From: a virus
Length of the DNA stretch: 22,179 nucleotides
Virus record (IMG/VR): IMGVR_UViG_3300008266_000908
Coordinates: 1 to 22,179 of that record
Strand: one strand, 5' to 3'
A model generated the notes under the pieces. It worked only from the letters and a program-made list of their open reading frames with translations, made no database searches and was not told the origin of the DNA. This document shows positions 1 to 13,754 of the stretch, in pieces. Position 1 is the stretch's first letter. Each line of letters starts with the position of its first letter. The position numbers and the translations under genes were made by a program.

Positions 1-310
1 TGTTTTGAACTTCAAATGTTAACTTGGACTCTTCTATTTCTGTGATTTTGTTTTGAAGATCCTCCATCATTTTTTCGTTTTTTTCATTTAACGTTACAAG
101 TTCTTCATTTTGTTTTTGTATTTTTTTTGTCATCTCAAGACGTTTTTTTCTTTTGTCTCCGTCTTTTGTTTCACAATCTTTTAAATATTTTTTAAAGTCC
201 TCATCATTTTCAGTATCAATAAGTTTAGTAATATTACCTTCAAGACCTATACCTTTTTTAAGGTATAAGTCCATCAATGTTTTTTTAGTATTACTATCTA
301 TTTTTATCAT
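1..310 (-). CDS. Coiled-coil protein, partial (3' end outside window)
   Basis: Only the first 103 or so codons are in the window. The start is an ATG at 310-308 that overlaps the stop of the upstream response regulator gene as ATGA, so the two are probably translationally coupled. The visible protein begins MIKIDSNTKKTLMDLYLKKG, is very rich in Lys and Glu, and from about residue 55 reads as a continuous heptad-like helix (NEELVTLNEKNEKMMEDLQ). Such a helix often precedes the dimerisation domain of sensor kinases, and this is the last gene of a two-component operon, so a third kinase is possible. No catalytic motif is visible before the edge, so function is unassigned. Confidence 0.7.
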   Translation of the reverse strand, partial: MIKIDSNTKKTLMDLYLKKGIGLEGNITKLIDTENDEDFKKYLKDCETKDGDKRKKRLEMTKKIQKQNEELVTLNEKNEKMMEDLQNKITEIEESKLTFEVQN

Positions 311-744
311 TTGTAAACTTTAAATGGTAAAGTTCTATTTTTATAACCTTCATAATCATTTCTAAATTCTTCTAAACGAGGTTCAATGTCGTCAGATTTA
401 ATAATCCAAAATTGAGCACCTGCTTGGATTGCCTTTGCTTGTTCTTCAGGTTCATTTGATGATGATATGATTCCAACAACTACGTGATTACCATATTCAA
501 AATTAATTTTTCTAATTAATTCTATACCATCAAAAGAACTACCAATGATGTTTAAATCAACAAACACACATTCAGGTTTATCATTATTATCTCCATCTTC
601 AAACCATTTTTGAAATAGTTTTGCCGCTTCGTCAGAACTATTTAACGCATTTAAAGACAAACTTATATCAAGTAATGAACAAGCATCTTCAAAAACCAAA
701 TGGAATAAATCCTCATCATCAACCAATAAAATAGAATCAATCAT
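307..744 (-). CDS. Single-domain response regulator (CheY/Rcp1-like)
   Basis: This 145-aa protein is a stand-alone receiver domain. The acidic pocket is D9-D10 (LLVDDED), the phosphoacceptor is D63 in FVDLN at the end of strand 3, the switch Ser/Thr position lies at S94-S95 (GIISSS), and the conserved lysine is K116 (IIKS). There is no output domain, so it should act by binding a partner or passing phosphate on. The length and the loop after D63 resemble Rcp1-type regulators that partner with PAS or phytochrome-like kinases. It lies 3 nt after the 478-aa histidine kinase, the obvious cognate donor, and overlaps the next gene by 4 nt. Receiver identity is firm; its target is unknown. Confidence 0.92.
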   Translation of the reverse strand: MIDSILLVDDEDLFHLVFEDACSLLDISLSLNALNSSDEAAKLFQKWFEDGDNNDKPECVFVDLNIIGSSFDGIELIRKINFEYGNHVVVGIISSSNEPEEQAKAIQAGAQFWIIKSDDIEPRLEEFRNDYEGYKNRTLPFKVYK

Positions 745-747
745 CTT

Positions 748-2184
748 TTAATTTTTTATTTTTATTTTTATTTTAGTTCCAATTTCATTTCTTTCACATT
801 CAAGGTCATACCCATGTTCTTTTAAAATTGCAATTGAAATATTCAACCCTAAACCAATTTCTCCTTTATCTTCTTTAGAAAATGATTTAATATGTTTTTT
901 AAATTCTTCATCTGTCATTCCAACACCGTTGTCTTGGACTATTATATAATTATCTTCAATAAATATTAAAACTTCTTTGTTTTCGCTCTTATTATATTTT
1001 AATCCGTTTTTAACTAAATTTTCAATTGCGTTACAAAATAACGTAGGATTAACTTCAAGACTTGGTAGTTCGTCAATTTTAATCTGTTTAAAGTATGATG
1101 TTTTAGCAAAATACATTTCAAGTAACTTTTTAATTTCTAATTCTTTTTTCTCTAATAAAACATTTTGTTTTACAAGATTTGTAAATTCATAAACACTTTT
1201 ATAAACTTTTTGAGTGTGGTCCAGACCTTCTCTAATCATTTTAATTGAACCTTCTATTTTAAGATTTTTTATATCTTCTGCCGTTAATCTTTTTTCTAAT
1301 GAACTTATACCTCTTGGGATATATGTATTTATTCCTGAATGCATGTCGTGTCTTATGATTCTTGCTGCGTGTTCTAAATAAGTATTTTTTGTGTTGATGT
1401 CTTGTAATTGTTCATCAATTTTAAAATCTTTTACTTTGATTGTTTTTCTCTGAAGTAAAACCAAAAACCCTAAAAGTAAAATGGAACCTACAATTACCGC
1501 CCATATTAAATAAGTTTTTAATTCTTCTTTTTCTAACCCTAAAATATTTTTTTCCTTTTTTAATTTGTTTTTATCTAAACTTAAATCAATAACTTGTTTT
1601 TCCTTTTTTAAACTTTTTATTGTTACATCTTTTTCATCTATTACTTTTTGACTTTCACCATTTTGAATTAATAATTGTTTTTCTTTTATTAATTTTTGTA
1701 TTTTTCCTTCTATCTCCTTTGCGATTTTTTGCATGTCATTAGGTGATAAGTTATCGTAAGATTTTGGTAGGTTATTTAAAAACTCTTTATCAGCCGCTAA
1801 ACTTGCTGCCAAATTTTCTGAAATTTTTTCTTCAGGGATTTCTTGTGGTATTTCAAAAACTTTTTCAGGCTCTAAATCAACAACTTCGACGTAGTCTTTA
1901 ACTCTTGATAAATACCAATCAGCTTCATCATACATGCCTTTATTGTAAAAGGCAATACCTATCTGCCTACAAAGTTTTACACTTTCTTTATCTTTATGTT
2001 TATTGTTTATCAATAAAGAATCAAAAGTTAATTTATCTGTTAAACTTTTAATATATGGATCACCATTTAAATAAGGAATTCCTTGATCCCAATTAGCCTC
2101 AATTTTTTGTTCCTTTATTTCTTTAAATTGTGAATGACCATTAAAAGAAATTAAAAGTATTATTATTAATAAAATTTTTTGCAT
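748..2184 (-). CDS. Membrane sensor histidine kinase with exported N-terminal domain
   Basis: This 478-aa protein has a signal peptide (MQKILLIIILLISFNGHSQ), then an exported region with a TPR-like helix pair (about residues 70-98, GIAFYNKGMYDEADWYL) and a long coiled coil (about 155-222). One transmembrane helix follows (about 226-245). The kinase core has an H-box with H279 (RHDMHSGIN), an N-box around N385-N393 (NAIENLVKNGLKYN), G1 box DNGVG at 418-422 and G2 box around 441-447 (GEIGLGL). All catalytic motifs are present. The core closely resembles the PAS kinase upstream in the same operon, so they are paralogues with different sensors. The next gene is a receiver domain, its likely acceptor. 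Exported TPR-plus-kinase proteins are common in Bacteroidota chromosomes and unusual on a phage. Confidence 0.9.
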   Translation of the reverse strand: MQKILLIIILLISFNGHSQFKEIKEQKIEANWDQGIPYLNGDPYIKSLTDKLTFDSLLINNKHKDKESVKLCRQIGIAFYNKGMYDEADWYLSRVKDYVEVVDLEPEKVFEIPQEIPEEKISENLAASLAADKEFLNNLPKSYDNLSPNDMQKIAKEIEGKIQKLIKEKQLLIQNGESQKVIDEKDVTIKSLKKEKQVIDLSLDKNKLKKEKNILGLEKEELKTYLIWAVIVGSILLLGFLVLLQRKTIKVKDFKIDEQLQDINTKNTYLEHAARIIRHDMHSGINTYIPRGISSLEKRLTAEDIKNLKIEGSIKMIREGLDHTQKVYKSVYEFTNLVKQNVLLEKKELEIKKLLEMYFAKTSYFKQIKIDELPSLEVNPTLFCNAIENLVKNGLKYNKSENKEVLIFIEDNYIIVQDNGVGMTDEEFKKHIKSFSKEDKGEIGLGLNISIAILKEHGYDLECERNEIGTKIKIKIKN

Positions 2185-2194
2185 ACTAATTAGT

Positions 2195-2785
2195 TTATAA
2201 TTTATAAGGGAATTTAATTAAAGTTGGTTTCCATCTTTTTTTATAAAATGTGTCCCAATTTTCTGGTGGTTCATCTGAATATAATCTATTATGATTTTTC
2301 CATTTTTCATCTTCTTCTATTGGTGCTCTTCTTACTATATTAAAATTACCGGTCCTTCTGTTACCTATCAAAATATATGAACCAAAGTCGATACCAATAA
2401 CTTGCTGTTCCCTGTATGAATAATAAAGGTATGTATTATCTATTGATGAATTATAGATCCACTTTTCAACAGTATCTAATTTTATTTTTAAACTATCGTA
2501 AATTGAATTTTTATTTTTAAGTTCAGTGTATAAACTATCTATCATAAAATTTTTTCTTATCAGGGCATTAACAAATATTTCTATTTCTTTATCTTTTTTT
2601 AATACATCTTTTTTGTAATTAACAACCCTTTGTTTTTGATTTTCCAATAGTGTCTGCATAACTTCGTATTGATCGGTGGTTAGAATGACTACTGAATCGT
2701 TTTTTAATTTTGTTTTTACGGGGTATTTCTGCGCACTGGTTAAGTGTGCGACTAATAATAATATTATTAATAAAAGTTTTTTCAT
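2195..2785 (-). CDS. Secreted coiled-coil protein of unknown function
   Basis: This 196-aa protein has a clear Bacteroidota-type signal peptide ending LTSAQ (cleavage near residue 18). The middle (about 38-110) is a charged coiled coil (NQKQRVVNYKKDVLKKDKEI). The C-terminal third is rich in Tyr and Trp (IDNTYLYYSYREQ, PPENWDTFYKKRW) and probably forms a small beta-rich domain. Its ATG overlaps the stop of the PAS kinase as ATGA, and the second kinase starts about 10 nt after its end, so it belongs to the signalling operon. A periplasmic adaptor for one of the kinases is possible from context only. I do not recognise the family. Confidence 0.8.
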   Translation of the reverse strand: MKKLLLIILLLVAHLTSAQKYPVKTKLKNDSVVILTTDQYEVMQTLLENQKQRVVNYKKDVLKKDKEIEIFVNALIRKNFMIDSLYTELKNKNSIYDSLKIKLDTVEKWIYNSSIDNTYLYYSYREQQVIGIDFGSYILIGNRRTGNFNIVRRAPIEEDEKWKNHNRLYSDEPPENWDTFYKKRWKPTLIKFPYKL

Positions 2786-4380
2786 ATAAATTTAATTTTC
2801 ATTTTTGTTCCTATTTCATTTTTTTCACAGGTAATGTTAAATCCGTGTTCTTCTAAAATCGCAACGCAAATATTTAACCCCAAACCAGTGCCTGATTCTT
2901 TTTGTCCTTCTTTTCTTGTGTATGGTTTACATAGGTGATCAAAGTCTTCTTGGGTAATCCCTCTACCATTATCTTGGATATAGATGTTATTTTCGTCAGA
3001 ATAAATTTTAACAAATTTGGTATCAGAGTCGTTATATTTTAAACCGTTTCTAATAAGGTTATCAACTGCAGTACAGAATAATGGTTCGTTTACTTCAACT
3101 GTTGGTAATTCATCAATAATAACTTGACTTAGATATGCTGTTGATGATAGGTAATCGTGTAGAATATTTTTTAGGTCACATTCGGTTTTATTTAAAACCA
3201 CATCTTTTTTAACTAAGTTGGTGAATTCGTAAACTCCCTTATAAACTTTTTGTGAATGTTTTAATCCTTCTTTAATCATTTTAATGGGCGCTTCAATTTT
3301 TAATGATGCAATGTCTTCAGGGTTTAATCTTCTTTCTAATGAACTTAACCCTCTTGGCATATAAGTATTTATACCTGAATGCATGTCGTGTCTTAATATT
3401 TTAGCTGCGTGTTCTAAGTAAGTGTTTTTCTTTTCAATTTCTTTTCTTTGTTCATACGAATTTGTAACATCTGTAGCGATCTTCATAACACGATAAATTT
3501 TACCGTCCACGCCAATAATAGGATTGTAGGTTGCTTGTAGATATACTAAAGAACCGTCTTTTTTAACTCTAGTGATTTCACCTGTAAATAATACACCCTC
3601 ATTTAATTTTTTCCAAAAAAGAGAATATTCCTCACTTTTTGAATGTTCCTCATCTATAAAAATTCTGTGGTGTTTTCCAATTATTTCATCCGGTGAAGAA
3701 TAACCCATAGTATTTAAAAACAATTCATTAGCAAAAATAATGTTCCCCTGTAAATCAAACTCAATAACCGCATTAGATTTGTTAATTGCGTTCATTCTGT
3801 TACGGATCTCAACTTCTTTTCTTTTAAGTTCTGTAACATCTTGTCTAATTGATGAAAACCCATCTAACTTACCCTTCTTATTAAATTTCGCTTTGATGTA
3901 TGTATCAACGTAATATAGTTCTCCTGACTTTCCTTTATTGGTAACAACGTCATTCCATATCTCACCTTTCATAACGGTTTCATACATCTTACCCCAATAC
4001 CCATCAGGTTGTAATCCGGAGTTAACAACACTATGATCTTTACCTTTTACCTCATCCAAAGACCAACCCGACACTTCTTCAAATTTTTTATTAACGTATG
4101 TTATTTTACCGTATTTATCGGCAACAGAAACAATTGTTGCAGAATCAATAAAATCCTCACTATCTTTTATTTGTTTTAATAATTCACCTTTTAACTCTAC
4201 TGTTTGGGTTTTCATTAAAAAATAAAATAATGGTGAAAATAATAAAAAGCAAGACATCTCAATAATTCTTGTTATATCATTAGCGTGAATAAGACCTACC
4301 AAAATAAAAATTTTAGTTAAAAGAAAAGTAACCATCAATATTACAGATGGTATTATTAATAATTTACGTTTTTTAGTCAT
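2782..4380 (-). CDS. PAS-domain sensor histidine kinase
   Basis: The protein is 532 aa if translation starts at the ATG at 4380. The frame is open further upstream, but that extension would run into the divergent gene at 4448 and lacks a promoter, whereas the chosen ATG has a TATTTAT element 4 nt upstream. Two transmembrane helices (about 7-30 and 40-56) are followed by two PAS/PAC domains (about 75-185 and 195-307, with GWSLDEVKGKDH and MGYSSPDEIIGKHH). The kinase core has H-box H331 (RHDMHSGINTY), N-box N441-N445, G1 DNGRG at 470-474, and G2 GTGLGLN at 497-503. All catalytic residues are intact. It heads the five-gene signalling operon. The PAS ligand cannot be told from sequence. Confidence 0.9.
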   Translation of the reverse strand: MTKKRKLLIIPSVILMVTFLLTKIFILVGLIHANDITRIIEMSCFLLFSPLFYFLMKTQTVELKGELLKQIKDSEDFIDSATIVSVADKYGKITYVNKKFEEVSGWSLDEVKGKDHSVVNSGLQPDGYWGKMYETVMKGEIWNDVVTNKGKSGELYYVDTYIKAKFNKKGKLDGFSSIRQDVTELKRKEVEIRNRMNAINKSNAVIEFDLQGNIIFANELFLNTMGYSSPDEIIGKHHRIFIDEEHSKSEEYSLFWKKLNEGVLFTGEITRVKKDGSLVYLQATYNPIIGVDGKIYRVMKIATDVTNSYEQRKEIEKKNTYLEHAAKILRHDMHSGINTYMPRGLSSLERRLNPEDIASLKIEAPIKMIKEGLKHSQKVYKGVYEFTNLVKKDVVLNKTECDLKNILHDYLSSTAYLSQVIIDELPTVEVNEPLFCTAVDNLIRNGLKYNDSDTKFVKIYSDENNIYIQDNGRGITQEDFDHLCKPYTRKEGQKESGTGLGLNICVAILEEHGFNITCEKNEIGTKMKIKFI

Positions 4381-4391
4381 ATAAATAAATA
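4381..4391 (-). promoter_or_regulatory. TATTTAT start-proximal element (PAS kinase)
   Basis: Read on the minus strand this is GATATTTATTTAT followed directly by ATG. TATTTAT sits 4 nt before the start codon. The same element at 4-5 nt spacing precedes four other leftward genes (ATGs at 9230, 12335, 16012 and 19052). It could be a late promoter giving near-leaderless mRNA, or a translation signal. Confidence 0.5.
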
Positions 4392-4423
4392 TCAAGAAAG
4401 TCTTTACTTTACAAAATAAGATA

Positions 4424-4430
4424 TATTTAT
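4424..4430 (+). promoter_or_regulatory. TATTTAT element upstream of wall-enzyme gene
   Basis: On the plus strand TATTTAT occurs within GATATATTTATAG, 17 nt before the ATG at 4448. It faces away from the element serving the PAS kinase, so this 67-nt divergent gap has one copy in each direction. The spacing differs from the five minus-strand cases, so it is less certain. Confidence 0.35.
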
Positions 4431-4447
4431 AGAAAAAATTAATTATT

Positions 4448-5041
4448 ATGTATACAAAAGAACAAGTAGAATTGGCCGTCAAGGCGAAAGGGTATGTTTG
4501 GTTTGAGGACACAAACAACAAAGGTTATGATGTTAATATCGTAGGCGTTAGAAATGCAAGTACAGGTCAAAAAGTGACTAATGTATTTGATGATCACATT
4601 ACATTATCTTACAAAGTTGATGGTCAATGGAAATTCCATATTTGGCCAGCAACGACTGACCCAGGTAAAAAAGGTGTTATGGAATACCACAACAAAGATG
4701 GTGTTGCTAGACTTGTTGAAGGTCAATATAGAGGTTCTCACACTATCAGATTACATCAAGGTAAATACGAAGCGTTAGGTCAAGCAAAAAGTGTTAAAGT
4801 TTATCGTGATGCTAACCGTGATATGGTATATGATGAAAAAAAGATTGCAGAAGGTATTTTTGGTATTAATATCCACAAAGCAGGTGCGGATTCAACCTAT
4901 GTTGAAAACTGGTCTGAAGGTTGCCAAGTATTTAAAAAGGCGGCAGATTTTGAAGAATTTATGAGTATTTGTAGAAAGGCTAGAAACATTCACGGTAACT
5001 CATTTAGTTATACGTTAATTGAATCAACAGACATTAAATAA
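4448..5041 (+). CDS. Putative cell-wall enzyme with H...SxGC motif
   Basis: This 197-aa protein is one of the few rightward genes. Its N-terminus (YTKEQVELAVKAKGYVWFED) resembles a phage lysis-protein family as I remember it. The key region is FGINIHKAG (H143) followed by NWSEGCQVF (S156, G158, C159). A His followed about 15 residues later by S-x-G-C resembles the YkuD L,D-transpeptidase active site (H...S/T-x-G-C). The substrate would be peptidoglycan, and the likely role host wall cleavage or remodelling. There is no signal peptide, so release would need a holin or entry with the virion. It has its own terminator and is divergent from the kinase operon. Phage gene: likely. Enzymatic class: tentative. 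Confidence 0.75.
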   Translation: MYTKEQVELAVKAKGYVWFEDTNNKGYDVNIVGVRNASTGQKVTNVFDDHITLSYKVDGQWKFHIWPATTDPGKKGVMEYHNKDGVARLVEGQYRGSHTIRLHQGKYEALGQAKSVKVYRDANRDMVYDEKKIAEGIFGINIHKAGADSTYVENWSEGCQVFKKAADFEEFMSICRKARNIHGNSFSYTLIESTDIK

Positions 5042-5044
5042 AAT

Positions 5045-5066
5045 AAAGGGACTTCGGTCCCTTTTT
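5045..5066 (+). terminator. Rho-independent terminator with UUCG loop
   Basis: The stem AAAGGGAC / GTCCCTTT with a TTCG tetraloop is followed by further Ts, starting 4 nt after the stop of the 197-aa gene. It lies between two convergent genes. On the other strand it is followed by a T-rich run, so it may serve the zinc-finger gene ending at 5073 as well. Confidence 0.9.
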
Positions 5067-5072
5067 ACTTTA

Positions 5073-5804
5073 TTAAAACATCTGTAACAAGATGTCGTTC
5101 TCACCTTCCCACTTCACAATTTTAGATTTAGGAACCCAGAACTCCATCTCTCCGATTTCCTCAACTTTGGCCAAGTACTCGTTACGGAAACGTTCTGCTT
5201 GTGTTCTATCAGTGATGTACTCAACTCCCATGTGTTTGGCACATGTCTTACCCATTTTAGTTAACATTGAAAACTCGTCGGTCAAGGTCTTAGCACAACA
5301 CAAACAAACATCACCACGTTTAACTGTCATTTTACCTGAGAACTTAACAGCCTTAGGTGATACCGCCAACACCTTAGTGATGTCTAAGATAGTTGGGTTG
5401 AATTTTAAACCGTAAGTGTCTTTCAACTTTTGACCTACCATACGACCAACTTTGATTGAATCACCCTCAACTGGGATATTCATGTGAACTGTCGCTTTTT
5501 GGTTTTTTTCTTTTTGGATTTGGTTCAATCCTGCTTGGATTTGTTTTTCAGACAATTTACCATAAAGGTTAAGTTTTGACTTCAAGTCATTAACAAATGA
5601 AGAAGGACCATCATAAGAAAGGATCTCTTTCATTTCAGGAGTAAACTCAACTTTTTTTACTTCCTCAACATTTTTGAAGATCTTTTCGACCGCAGATTTT
5701 TGGTTTACAGTTAATGAACCGTATTTAGATAGAGCATCTTTCATTTTTAAAACGAAAGAGTTAGAACCTTTGTAATTTTTTACTTGTGAAGTTATATCTG
5801 TCAT
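5073..5804 (-). CDS. Zinc-finger phage protein with duplicated SF-LSxxQ module
   Basis: This 243-aa protein starts with two copies of a roughly 35-residue helical module: residues 13-47 (GSNSFVLKMKDALSKYGSLT) and 66-100 (GPSSFVNDLKSKLNLYGKLS then EKQ). The second copy matches a single copy in the DHH protein encoded at 14180-16012. A compact zinc-binding site follows, with C167, C169, C170, C188 and H191 (VCLCCAKTLTDEFS ... GKTCAKH). This resembles the small Cys motif of DUF6011-type phage proteins. The C-terminus is acidic and Trp-rich. Function is unknown; nucleic-acid or protein binding is plausible. It has its own strong host-like promoter. Confidence 0.82.
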   Translation of the reverse strand: MTDITSQVKNYKGSNSFVLKMKDALSKYGSLTVNQKSAVEKIFKNVEEVKKVEFTPEMKEILSYDGPSSFVNDLKSKLNLYGKLSEKQIQAGLNQIQKEKNQKATVHMNIPVEGDSIKVGRMVGQKLKDTYGLKFNPTILDITKVLAVSPKAVKFSGKMTVKRGDVCLCCAKTLTDEFSMLTKMGKTCAKHMGVEYITDRTQAERFRNEYLAKVEEIGEMEFWVPKSKIVKWEGENDILLQMF

Positions 5805-6084: not shown

Positions 6085-6163
6085 AGGTCAGTAAAGGATT
6101 CGAACCAATGACACGTCCACTTCTTAGGGTTGTGGATTGCTCTACCAGCTGAGCTAACTGACC
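6085..6163 (-). tRNA. Aberrant tRNA-like gene with 11-nt anticodon loop
   Basis: Read on the minus strand, the acceptor stem GGTCAGT / ACTGACC pairs perfectly and the D-arm GCTC-AGCTGGTA-GAGC is canonical. The anticodon stem TCCAC / GTGGA pairs, but its loop is 11 nt (AACCCTAAGAA) instead of 7 and has no U at the normal position 33. The T-loop TTCGAAT is canonical but the T-stem ATTGG / CCTTT has two T-T mismatches. No CCA is encoded. It is followed by seven Ts. It could be a decayed tRNA, a tRNA needing processing, or a tRNA-derived stable RNA. I cannot assign an amino acid. Confidence 0.6.
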
Positions 6164-6169
6164 TACCTG

Positions 6170-6285
6170 TTGTCAGGGTGGGATTCGAACCCACAATGAG
6201 TGACCTTATAACTTCTCGCGTCCAAATTGCTCTTGGACCGTGGCGTCTTTAGGACTCGGCACCATGCCTCATTACACTCCTGACA
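6170..6285 (-). ncRNA. tRNA-like RNA of about 115 nt with non-canonical centre
   Basis: The ends form a perfect 7-bp acceptor-like stem (TGTCAGG / CCTGACA) next to a perfect T-arm (GTGGG-TTCGAAT-CCCAC). Between them, where D-arm, anticodon arm and variable loop should be, are about 80 nt with no normal D-arm or anticodon loop. Instead AATGAG (6273-6268) can pair with CTCATT (6200-6195), directly abutting the T-stem, and inside are hairpins GGC-ATGGT-GCC and GTCCAA / TTGGAC. An acceptor, T-arm and long extra helix recall the tRNA-like domain of tmRNA, but tmRNA 5' sequences and a tag ORF are absent. It may instead be a type II tRNA carrying an insertion. Confidence 0.55.
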
Positions 6286-6290
6286 AAAAA

Positions 6291-7162: not shown

Positions 7163-7265
7163 TGATCCCGGATGGATTCGAACCATCGACCTACTGCTTC
7201 TCCATAGAACGTCCGAGAGGTACTATCGAGAAGGCAGTTACTCTAATCCGCTGAGTTACGGGACC
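7163..7265 (-). tRNA. tRNA-Arg(UCU)-like gene with 29-nt insertion in the anticodon loop
   Basis: On the minus strand all arms are canonical: acceptor GGTCCCG / CGGGATC (one G-T pair), D-arm ACTC-AGCGGATTA-GAGT, anticodon stem ACTGC / GCAGT, variable loop AGGTC, T-arm GATGG-TTCGAAT-CCATC, discriminator A. Between the stem strands lie 36 nt instead of 7. Removing positions 7228-7200 leaves the loop CTTCTAA with anticodon UCU (reads AGA). The insertion's end GAG plus A37-A38 pairs with U33-UCU-C, and ATAG pairs with CTAT further in, so the anticodon is buried in an extended hairpin. No CCA is encoded. Bacterial tRNA introns are normally self-splicing group I or II, which are far larger. Confidence 0.8.
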
Positions 7266-12347: not shown

Positions 12348-12381
12348 TAAAGATTATTTTTTAATAACAAATTATACAAAC

Positions 12382-12414
12382 AAAAAAAGGACACAAAATA
12401 TAGTTTGTATCCTT
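12382..12414 (-). terminator. Strong Rho-independent terminator of the large RNA
   Basis: On the minus strand AAGGATACAAA pairs with TTTGTGTCCTT (one T-G pair) around a short loop and is followed by a run of Ts at 12388-12382. It ends the non-coding region and insulates the 607-aa gene. Confidence 0.92.
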
Positions 12415-13410
12415 AGATGTCTTTTTTACCAGTAAGTTTTTAAAAAAAGGCTGAGATTACACCTGTTATTGAGAACCTTTGAAAGGATTATTGTTTCCCT
12501 TTGTATCCACCATCTTTTGAATGGTATTTCTCAGTGACGGTTATTTAAGTGAACCACTCTTTAAGGTTTTGTCTACTCTCCTATTACTCAACTCTCTTCG
12601 AGGATGCCTCCCCAACTAGTCCTTGCGGGATTAGAGGTCTTTGGTAAAATTACACTCGGACTTGGGATCTTTGTGTGCAATGAACAACTCATTACTAGGT
12701 AGTCACCTTTCGACCAAACCTGACGGACACTTTTCCTTTCTGTAGTTAATAATAGTTTTATTACTTTCCATAAAGTTTTTGTGTCGTGGATTGTGAAAGT
12801 AGTGGTCCGTCACGGGCTTCGTTATCTTTTGAACAACGAAATACTCAACTACTCTCTGAAATGTCCCCATTTCCATATTTCAAGATTACTTCAAAACAAT
12901 TCCTTTGGTAAAGAATCATTAGGGTTGGTAACAGCACCACCTGTACACGAACATACCTTTCGGTTTTAAGTGCCCTATCATAATGGAGGACGCAATAATA
13001 AAGTTGGATACTGTATTTTTTGCATCGTTCCTACGGGTTATTCCTCTTGGTGTTCCCACCTCAAACTGACAACCCACATTGCCAGTTCATCTAACCACTT
13101 TCCCTACAGCGTTGCCCTCGGTACTAAAGGTTAAACGGTATCCCGCTTGTGTACTCGACCTCAACAAGTCCGAAGACTCACCAAGACGCAAACCTATTAC
13201 ACGTTAGGTTCACTTTATCCCACTTTCGTGGTTTATTTTAATGGACCATACACGGCCCAATGACTTAATTTAGTTTCACGCTTAAAGAAAGGGAGGTGTT
13301 AATTCGCTTTTTTTTAATTGTGACGACCATTTCAGTCGGTTTTAGTTTTTCAAAGAACGTTTTCTCTAATTCGACAACGAGTATCTTTCATCTCCTGTGG
13401 TTTCGAATCT
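12384..13410 (-). ncRNA. Candidate giant structured non-coding RNA, about 1 kb
   Basis: This stretch lacks credible ORFs on both strands, is much richer in G+C than the neighbouring genes (50% in 13141-13200), and is packed with minus-strand hairpins. Examples: CCAC-GAAA-GTGG (13220-13231), AACCTA/TAGGTT (13191-13210), AGTC-TTCG-GACT (13167-13178), a 9-bp AACTGGCAA/TTGTCAGTT stem (13064-13087), GGTG-GGAA-CACC (13049-13060), TTCGTT/AACGAA (12818-12840), AATGA/TCATT (12679-12693). Longer-range helices include TGACGGAC (12812-12805) with GTCCGTCA (12728-12721) and CTGAGA (12534-12529) with TCTCAG (12456-12451). A consensus promoter lies upstream and a strong terminator closes it. No 16S, 23S, RNase P, tmRNA or group I/II core was recognised. 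Style and size resemble GOLLD, ROOL or OLE RNAs; class unassigned. Confidence 0.85.
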
Positions 13411-13415
13411 TTTTA

Positions 13416-13446
13416 CAAAGTTAAGTCTTTTTTTTTAATTAGACAA
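13416..13446 (-). promoter_or_regulatory. Bacteroidota-type promoter for the large RNA
   Basis: On the minus strand, TTG (13446-13444), 20 nt, TAACTTTG (13423-13416), an exact consensus. It lies just downstream of the 47-aa ORF. Transcription should start near 13410. The first bases can form a hairpin ATTCGA / TCGAAT. Confidence 0.8.
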
Positions 13447-13464
13447 GTACCTTGTGAACTTTTT

Positions 13465-13608
13465 TTAATTTTTTTCTACGTACACTTTTTGAGTTCCGTA
13501 TTTATTAGCCATAATCTCAGCGAACTGAAGATTAGGTGTGAATACTCTTTGACCTTTGTCATTAATGTAAGAGTAAATTTCGTTTACAATTATTTGTTCT
13601 TCACTCAT
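13465..13608 (-). CDS. 47-aa small protein of unknown function
   Basis: An ORF from ATG at 13608 encodes MSEEQIIVNEIYSYINDKGQ, then RVFTPNLQFAEIMANKYGTQ and KVYVEKN. Composition and predicted secondary structure are protein-like, and a consensus promoter stands about 50 nt upstream. It lies directly before the large-RNA promoter. The reading FTPNLQFAEIMANKYGT suggests a small helix-turn-helix-like or recognition helix, but this is weak. No family recognised. Confidence 0.62.
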   Translation of the reverse strand: MSEEQIIVNEIYSYINDKGQRVFTPNLQFAEIMANKYGTQKVYVEKN

Positions 13609-13656
13609 TTTTTTCAGTTTTTCAAATTATTATTAGGTCGTTTCCTAATTGTTTAA

Positions 13657-13687
13657 CAAATCTAAAACATTTATTCTAAACTGTCAA
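13657..13687 (-). promoter_or_regulatory. Bacteroidota-type promoter for 47-aa gene
   Basis: On the minus strand, TTG (13687-13685), 20 nt, TAGATTTG (13664-13657), an exact consensus. Read-through could also extend into the large RNA, so that RNA may have a primary and a longer form. Confidence 0.8.
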
Positions 13688-13754
13688 TTGTTTTCTATAA
13701 AAAAAATGAAATTTGTCAGAGGTATTGTATAAATATATTGAAAGGTATCAAAAT

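Follow-up and report, generated by a model that had tools for sequence, protein, structure and literature searches.

The locus studied here raises the question of what becomes of a phage tRNA whose anticodon loop is interrupted by an insert of only 29 nucleotides. To our knowledge, the tRNA introns described from bacteria are self-splicing group I introns. The gene lies in the window, by which we mean the whole of a 22-kb viral fragment in IMG/VR (22,179 nucleotides, GC 29%) that is distantly related to the huge phages LR745206, LR756502 and LR756501 (634-735 kb). A preliminary description, made from the letters alone, had proposed that the insert is either spliced out by a novel route or diverts the tRNA to another use.

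A tRNA-Arg(UCU) gene interrupted between U36 and A37

The tRNA and its insertion, as first described, are borne out both by a full-model match and by alignment to orthologues. A complete tRNA-Arg(UCU) occupies positions 7265-7163 on the minus strand, where Rfam tRNA model RF00005 scores 55.4 bits against a cut-off of 29 and is matched over model positions 1-71 of 71 (Table 1). In its default mode ARAGORN calls no tRNA at this locus; with introns allowed, it places a 29-nt intron there and misreads the anticodon as Leu GAG. Alignment with intronless orthologues puts the insert exactly between U36 and A37, the window reading ACTGC-CTTCT[29 nt]AA-GCAGT against ACTGC-CTTCTAA-GCAGT in two relatives (L006 and L016), with the loop ordered C32, U33, the anticodon U34-C35-U36, the 29 nt, A37 and A38. 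No CCA is encoded at the 3' end. The codon count that the preliminary description had proposed gives AGA 141 of the 172 arginine codons of the window (82%), and tRNA-Arg(UCU) is therefore what such a phage would use.

Table 1. Components of the interrupted tRNA-Arg(UCU) gene, with positions in the window
Feature	Position	Strand	Basis
5' exon: acceptor 5' strand, D arm, anticodon stem 5' strand, C32, U33, U34-C35-U36	7229..7265	-	Rfam RF00005, orthologue alignment
Anticodon U34-C35-U36	7231-7229	-	within 5' exon
29-nt insert (presumed intron), upper part of extended anticodon hairpin	7200..7228	-	absent from orthologues, fold, covariation
3' exon: A37, A38, anticodon stem 3' strand, variable loop, T arm, acceptor 3' strand, discriminator A	7163..7199	-	Rfam RF00005, sequence
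Extended pre-tRNA hairpin	7193..7238	-	folds; architecture common to 12 other distinct hairpins

Gain or loss of the insert among relatives

With a neighbouring protein as query, 40 related loci were retrieved, in several of which the tRNA is syntenic. The identical insert is present in L005 and in L008 (L230), which are separate contigs, and L231, with about 83% identity in the surrounding DNA, carries an insert that differs only in its apical loop, exons and stems being identical to those of the window despite that divergence. An assembly error, which the preliminary description had named as a finding that would undo its claim, is contradicted, because L005, L008/L230 and L231 have the insert in separate contigs. 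In four other relatives (L006, L016, L017 and L018), one of which (L006) is 80% identical to the window across the locus, this tRNA has its CUUCUAA loop uninterrupted. Since syntenic copies of this tRNA occur both with and without the insert, the alignments indicate that the insert was gained or lost as a discrete unit, exactly at 36/37. The D stem has an A-U pair in the window and L231 and a G-C pair in the relatives, which on comparison of the sequences is a compensatory change of the kind expected where a tRNA works.

Recurrence in cultured phages and in other tRNAs

The search of related phages that had been suggested found identical, near-identical and sequence-unrelated inserts at the same site. 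A search pattern describing an insert-bearing tRNA-Arg(UCU), which imposed the CUUCU/AGAAG pairs and no further pairing, recovered sequence-unrelated inserts of 25-38 nt at the same position in L205 (Aeromonas phage PX29), L210, L212, L224, L261 and L003 (Aeromonas phage Ah1). Besides metagenomic phages, the carriers of the interrupted tRNA-Arg(UCU) include cultured T4-like phages of Aeromonas, namely Aeh1, Ah1, PX29, AsFcp_4, phiWae14 and avDM12-TAAL; in Aeh1, AsFcp_4, phiWae14 and avDM12-TAAL, inserts of 26-28 nt interrupt an orthologous tRNA adjoining gene 57B, and their relative phiAS5 has a plain loop in the orthologous tRNA. Plain loops are likewise found in CC2, AS-zj, P19, RaK2 and the huge phages LR745206, LR756502 and LR756501. 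Existing annotations give the gene of Aeh1 as tRNA-Glu(UUC) and that of PX29 as a tRNA-Lys joined from two pieces. A 2006 survey listed an Arg UCU tRNA for T4 and 44RR and none for Aeh1 (PMC1524935), presumably because of the insert. In Ah1, where all 25 tRNA matches fall in one region, ARAGORN covers most amino acids there and finds no tRNA-Arg, and the intron-bearing gene is therefore the only tRNA-Arg found.

Inserts are found in tRNAs for other amino acids as well. Searches in which the anticodon was not fixed identified an Ile(UAU) tRNA (L376), a Gly(GCC) tRNA (L183) and a class II CAU tRNA (L111), and one in which it was partly fixed identified a Thr(UGU) tRNA (L506). The inserts of the Ile and CAU cases end in U, so that a site at 35/36 would yield the same product as one at 36/37. 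Insert length across all phages found is 25-44 nt. A looser structural filter applied to 549 records returned essentially the same set plus one doubtful extra, L463. Many other long-loop calls by the tRNA finder, such as a tRNA-Glu of phiAS5, fall outside the class and were left uncounted.

An extended anticodon hairpin

Folding bears out the earlier claim that the insertion extends the anticodon hairpin. The window fold comprises five anticodon-stem pairs, a bulged C32, U33:A38, U34:A37, C35:G(-1), U36:A(-2) and nine pairs internal to the insert, negative numbers counting back from the insert's 3' end. Of the pairing first described between the insert and U33 plus the UCU anticodon, the part involving C35 and U36 stands; U33 and U34 pair instead with the exon bases A38 and A37. 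The minimum free energy is -18.1 kcal/mol, against a mean of -9.6 kcal/mol for shuffled sequences (z -3.5), and the window hairpin is beyond chance. Across the class, pairs +1:-3 to +4:-6 form in 46 of 52 cells, whereas shuffling of the inserts gives 21.7 and 0 of 20,000 shuffles reach the observed level. In 13 hairpins, 90.8% of cells are paired in the proposed structure, 13 of its 15 pairs have changed on both sides, and the covariation score is 0.735, against 0.194 with shuffled partners and 0.09-0.15 with the register slid.

The last two bases of the insert match the anticodon, AG with UCU, AU with UAU, AC with UGU and GG with GCC, a match that the search itself imposed for pattern-found Arg cases and, at purine/pyrimidine level only, for Thr, and that was not imposed for the window, the homology-found Aeromonas orthologues, Ile or Gly. 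Hairpin dimensions are constant, with 6-7 exon-exon pairs, two anticodon-insert pairs and, for inserts of 25-29 nt, 8-10 internal pairs. The two junctions are staggered: with U34 paired to A37, the 5' exon ends in C35-U36 as a 2-nt 3' overhang, and with insert base +1 paired to -3, the insert likewise ends in a 2-nt 3' overhang. This geometry appears on the exon side in 14 of 16 folded hairpins and on the insert side in 12 of 16, counts that express consistency and no independent test, since the 2-nt stagger is implied by a 36/37 site together with the U33:A38 register and the site is fixed by the pattern for most Arg cases. Minimum-energy folds of L183 and L111 depart slightly from the register. 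Judged by these comparisons, the hairpin of insert-bearing tRNAs is real, recurrent and under structural selection.

Comparison with known introns and repair systems

Group I introns also interrupt the anticodon loops of bacterial-type tRNAs, whereas the phage inserts, at 25-44 nt, have no catalytic core. The earlier remark that the window insert falls well below the size of group I and group II introns holds: a group I core takes well over 100 nt, against 29 nt here, and Rfam gives no group I or other intron match at the locus. Both kinds were rejected on size and the lack of a match.

A likeness to archaeal and eukaryal tRNA introns had also been drawn, and part of it stands, since both are short anticodon-loop inserts that pair with the anticodon and would need protein enzymes. 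The rest does not, because the canonical site is 37/38 (PMC4090602) against 36/37 in the window, the folds give a near-continuous helix at the junctions in place of a bulge-helix-bulge, and EndA, the enzyme those introns use, was absent from the phages searched here. The search for a splicing endonuclease that the preliminary description had advised thus came back empty for EndA (PF01974) in each of 19 phages represented by a genome or, as for the window, by a fragment. An archaeal-type intron was rejected on its site, the continuous helix and the outcome of this search.

Small hairpin inserts in a stable RNA are also known as the intervening sequences of bacterial 23S rRNA, which RNase III removes; there the pieces stay unjoined, whereas a tRNA would need ligation. 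Joining of tRNA halves broken in the anticodon loop by a phage ligase, as proposed below, is what T4 Pnkp and Rnl1 accomplish after PrrC (PMC3400036), although that pathway repairs damage and here an encoded insert must first be excised.

The closest precedent is in Lak megaphages, whose tRNA introns were first reported in 2019 by Devoto et al. and termed "enigmatic" (PMC6784885). These introns are likewise conserved, occur in large phages with Bacteroidetes-type hosts and have an unexplained mechanism, and one of them aligned one nucleotide off its predicted site. The window shares with them an insert that sits precisely in the anticodon loop, that some close relatives have and others lack, and that leaves the rest of the phage tRNA normal. 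It differs from the Lak tRNA-Thr(UGU) intron, the one described there in detail, which may itself encode a tRNA, in being a simple hairpin that is not tRNA-like. The main text of that report describes neither a class of short anticodon-pairing hairpins nor covariation. Some Lak introns may overlap with the short hairpin class, which nevertheless looks different from Lak introns as reported in being short, anticodon-pairing and cultivable. Among open-licence papers, we found no account of a short anticodon-pairing class, its covariation, its presence in cultured phages or an RNase III-like stagger. Separately, longer inserts of 79-96 nt with a T-arm-like hairpin, in L096 (loci 3871-4021 and 5005-5157) and L161, resemble the Lak description.

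A candidate route of removal and its alternatives

The comparisons make it very probable that the insert is a removable intron of a working tRNA-Arg(UCU). RNase III products have a 2-nt 3' overhang stagger with 5'-phosphate and 3'-OH ends, which T4 RNA ligases can join. In the route that we propose, the anticodon stem of the pre-tRNA, the loop bases and the intron would form one hairpin of about 17-19 bp; an RNase III-type double-strand endonuclease, probably the host's, would cut this hairpin on either strand where exon meets intron, to give 2-nt 3' overhangs with 5'-phosphate and 3'-OH ends; and a T4-type phage RNA ligase, Rnl1 or Rnl2, would seal the tRNA halves into a normal CUUCUAA loop that decodes AGA. 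We infer the cutting, the identity of the nuclease and the sealing by a phage ligase, and put the chance of an RNase III-type cut followed by such sealing at a little short of even. The benefit may be that host anticodon nucleases are kept from the anticodon as long as the ligase has yet to be made; alternatively there may be none, the insert being selfish and tolerated.

The search for an RNA ligase that the preliminary description had advised was productive: both Rnl1 (PF09511) and Rnl2 (PF09414) are encoded in every complete genome of an Aeromonas carrier. Two carrier contigs, G020 (120 kb, with L224) and G021 (147 kb, with L261), both possibly incomplete, show no Rnl1, Rnl2 or RtcB, which weakens the proposed route if they are in fact complete, and Rnl1/Rnl2 families are found also in intronless phages, namely phiAS5 and the huge phages (Mahaphages). 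RNase III was not found in the phages searched, so that host RNase III would have to act. The insert hairpins are rather short for RNase III, which weighs against an RNase III cut. Gene 57B, annotated in RefSeq as an RNA ligase (Aeh1, L289 3945-4439, minus strand), was rejected as a candidate; its Pfam match is anti-CBASS Acb1 (E 9.8e-36), and an apparent linkage of the Aeromonas tRNAs to a ligase gene was therefore dropped.

Excision might instead begin with an anticodon-loop nuclease of phage or host that leaves 2',3'-cyclic phosphate and 5'-OH ends, which Pnkp would heal and Rnl1 seal, or RtcB join directly, a tRNA repair pathway thereby doubling as splicing. We regard this as possible, if doubtful: T4 Pnkp and Rnl1 mend exactly such breaks after PrrC (PMC3400036) and the carrier of the Ile(UAU) case, G026, encodes RtcB, but the Aeromonas carriers lack RtcB, and the nuclease, for which no candidate was identified, must locate both junctions in a duplex of variable sequence.

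It seems improbable that the molecule stays unspliced, with the insert making it a decoy for anticodon nucleases, as the preliminary description put forward, or serving some other non-decoding use. The anticodon is indeed buried in a helix, and phage tRNAs are known to escape anticodon nucleases through loop changes (PMC10264068). A decoy is nevertheless disfavoured by the exact, intron-like gain and loss between orthologues, the matched pairing in five isoacceptors, the intact tRNA body with its compensatory D-stem change, the preference for AGA and the location of the insert in the only tRNA-Arg found in the large tRNA set of Ah1. Still less credible, to the point of being very improbable, is a decaying tRNA pseudogene that received a chance or palindromic insertion. 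Odd tRNA-like elements do occur in the tRNA regions of large phages, some of them at 6085-6286 of the window, but a pseudogene would not be expected to keep exons and stems identical to those of L231 at 83% surrounding identity, to acquire compensatory changes, or to recur at one exact site in unrelated phages. Removal of the insert by splicing thus remains our preferred reading, and the early suggestion of a novel route is supported by an insert too short for self-splicing and devoid of a bulge-helix-bulge, EndA not having been found in the phages searched. The evidence suggests that phage-infected bacteria excise and rejoin small tRNA introns by an undescribed route.

Other unusual elements in the window and in other phages

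A second tRNA-like gene of the window, at 6085-6163 on the minus strand (RF00005, 41.8 bits), has about 11 nt in place of the 7-nt anticodon loop, and its U33 and anticodon are unclear. Next to it, at 6170-6286 on the same strand, an element that forms good acceptor and T arms (GTCAGG ... GTGGGTTCGAATCCCAC CCTGAC) has an unusual middle of 84 nt; a sub-threshold match to YrlA, a Y RNA-like RNA, covers this element and the next tRNA. Elsewhere, L201 1367-1467 (plus strand) is an Asn(GUU)-like tRNA whose anticodon loop is interrupted at another site, about 30 nt separating U33 from G34. In L492 6116-6210 (minus strand), a tRNA-Gly(GCC), the 36/37 site holds a 24-nt hairpin whose bases form no pairs with the anticodon. 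The tRNA-Glu(UUC) of phiAS5 (L293 240-332, minus strand) has a tandemly duplicated anticodon arm, CGCCCTTTCACGGC being repeated, and a loop of 29 nt. A further set of tRNA-like genes keeps a normal acceptor, D arm and T arm but has 46-67 nt in place of the anticodon loop (L111 7683-7797, L127 3733-3845, L130 11026-11136, L133 4302-4414, L172 6852-6968, L173 3376-3493, L182 9979-10092 and Ah1 84975-85093). Their loops have recurring motifs, an AU start, a hairpin, and CCGC- or GCA-type followed by UGGGA-type stretches, and they possibly represent a separate RNA family.

The window also contains a GOLLD RNA at 12448-12856 on the minus strand (Rfam RF02032, 328.7 bits, E 6.9e-94), and over the conserved stretch around it, 12380-13750, relatives are 74-87% identical in DNA whether or not they carry the tRNA intron. 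Consecutive open reading frames at 307-4521 (minus strand) resemble, by eye, genes for a response regulator and for a pair of histidine kinases, of which one has PAS-like repeats.

Implications

If a nuclease of the RNase III type excises these tiny anticodon-pairing introns and Rnl1 or Rnl2 then ligates the exons, phages would have a third kind of tRNA splicing, neither self-splicing nor dependent on EndA, a proposal that we advance tentatively and consider somewhat less than an even prospect. Among the carriers are Aeromonas phages that are in culture and have genomes made public long ago, which makes the question posed by the Lak introns directly testable. Were the proposal true, a phage tRNA would be shielded from anticodon nucleases until the phage's own ligase is present, RNA ligases of the T4 family would have a constitutive job, and T4-type Rnl1 and Rnl2 may gain a natural substrate beyond the repair of damage.
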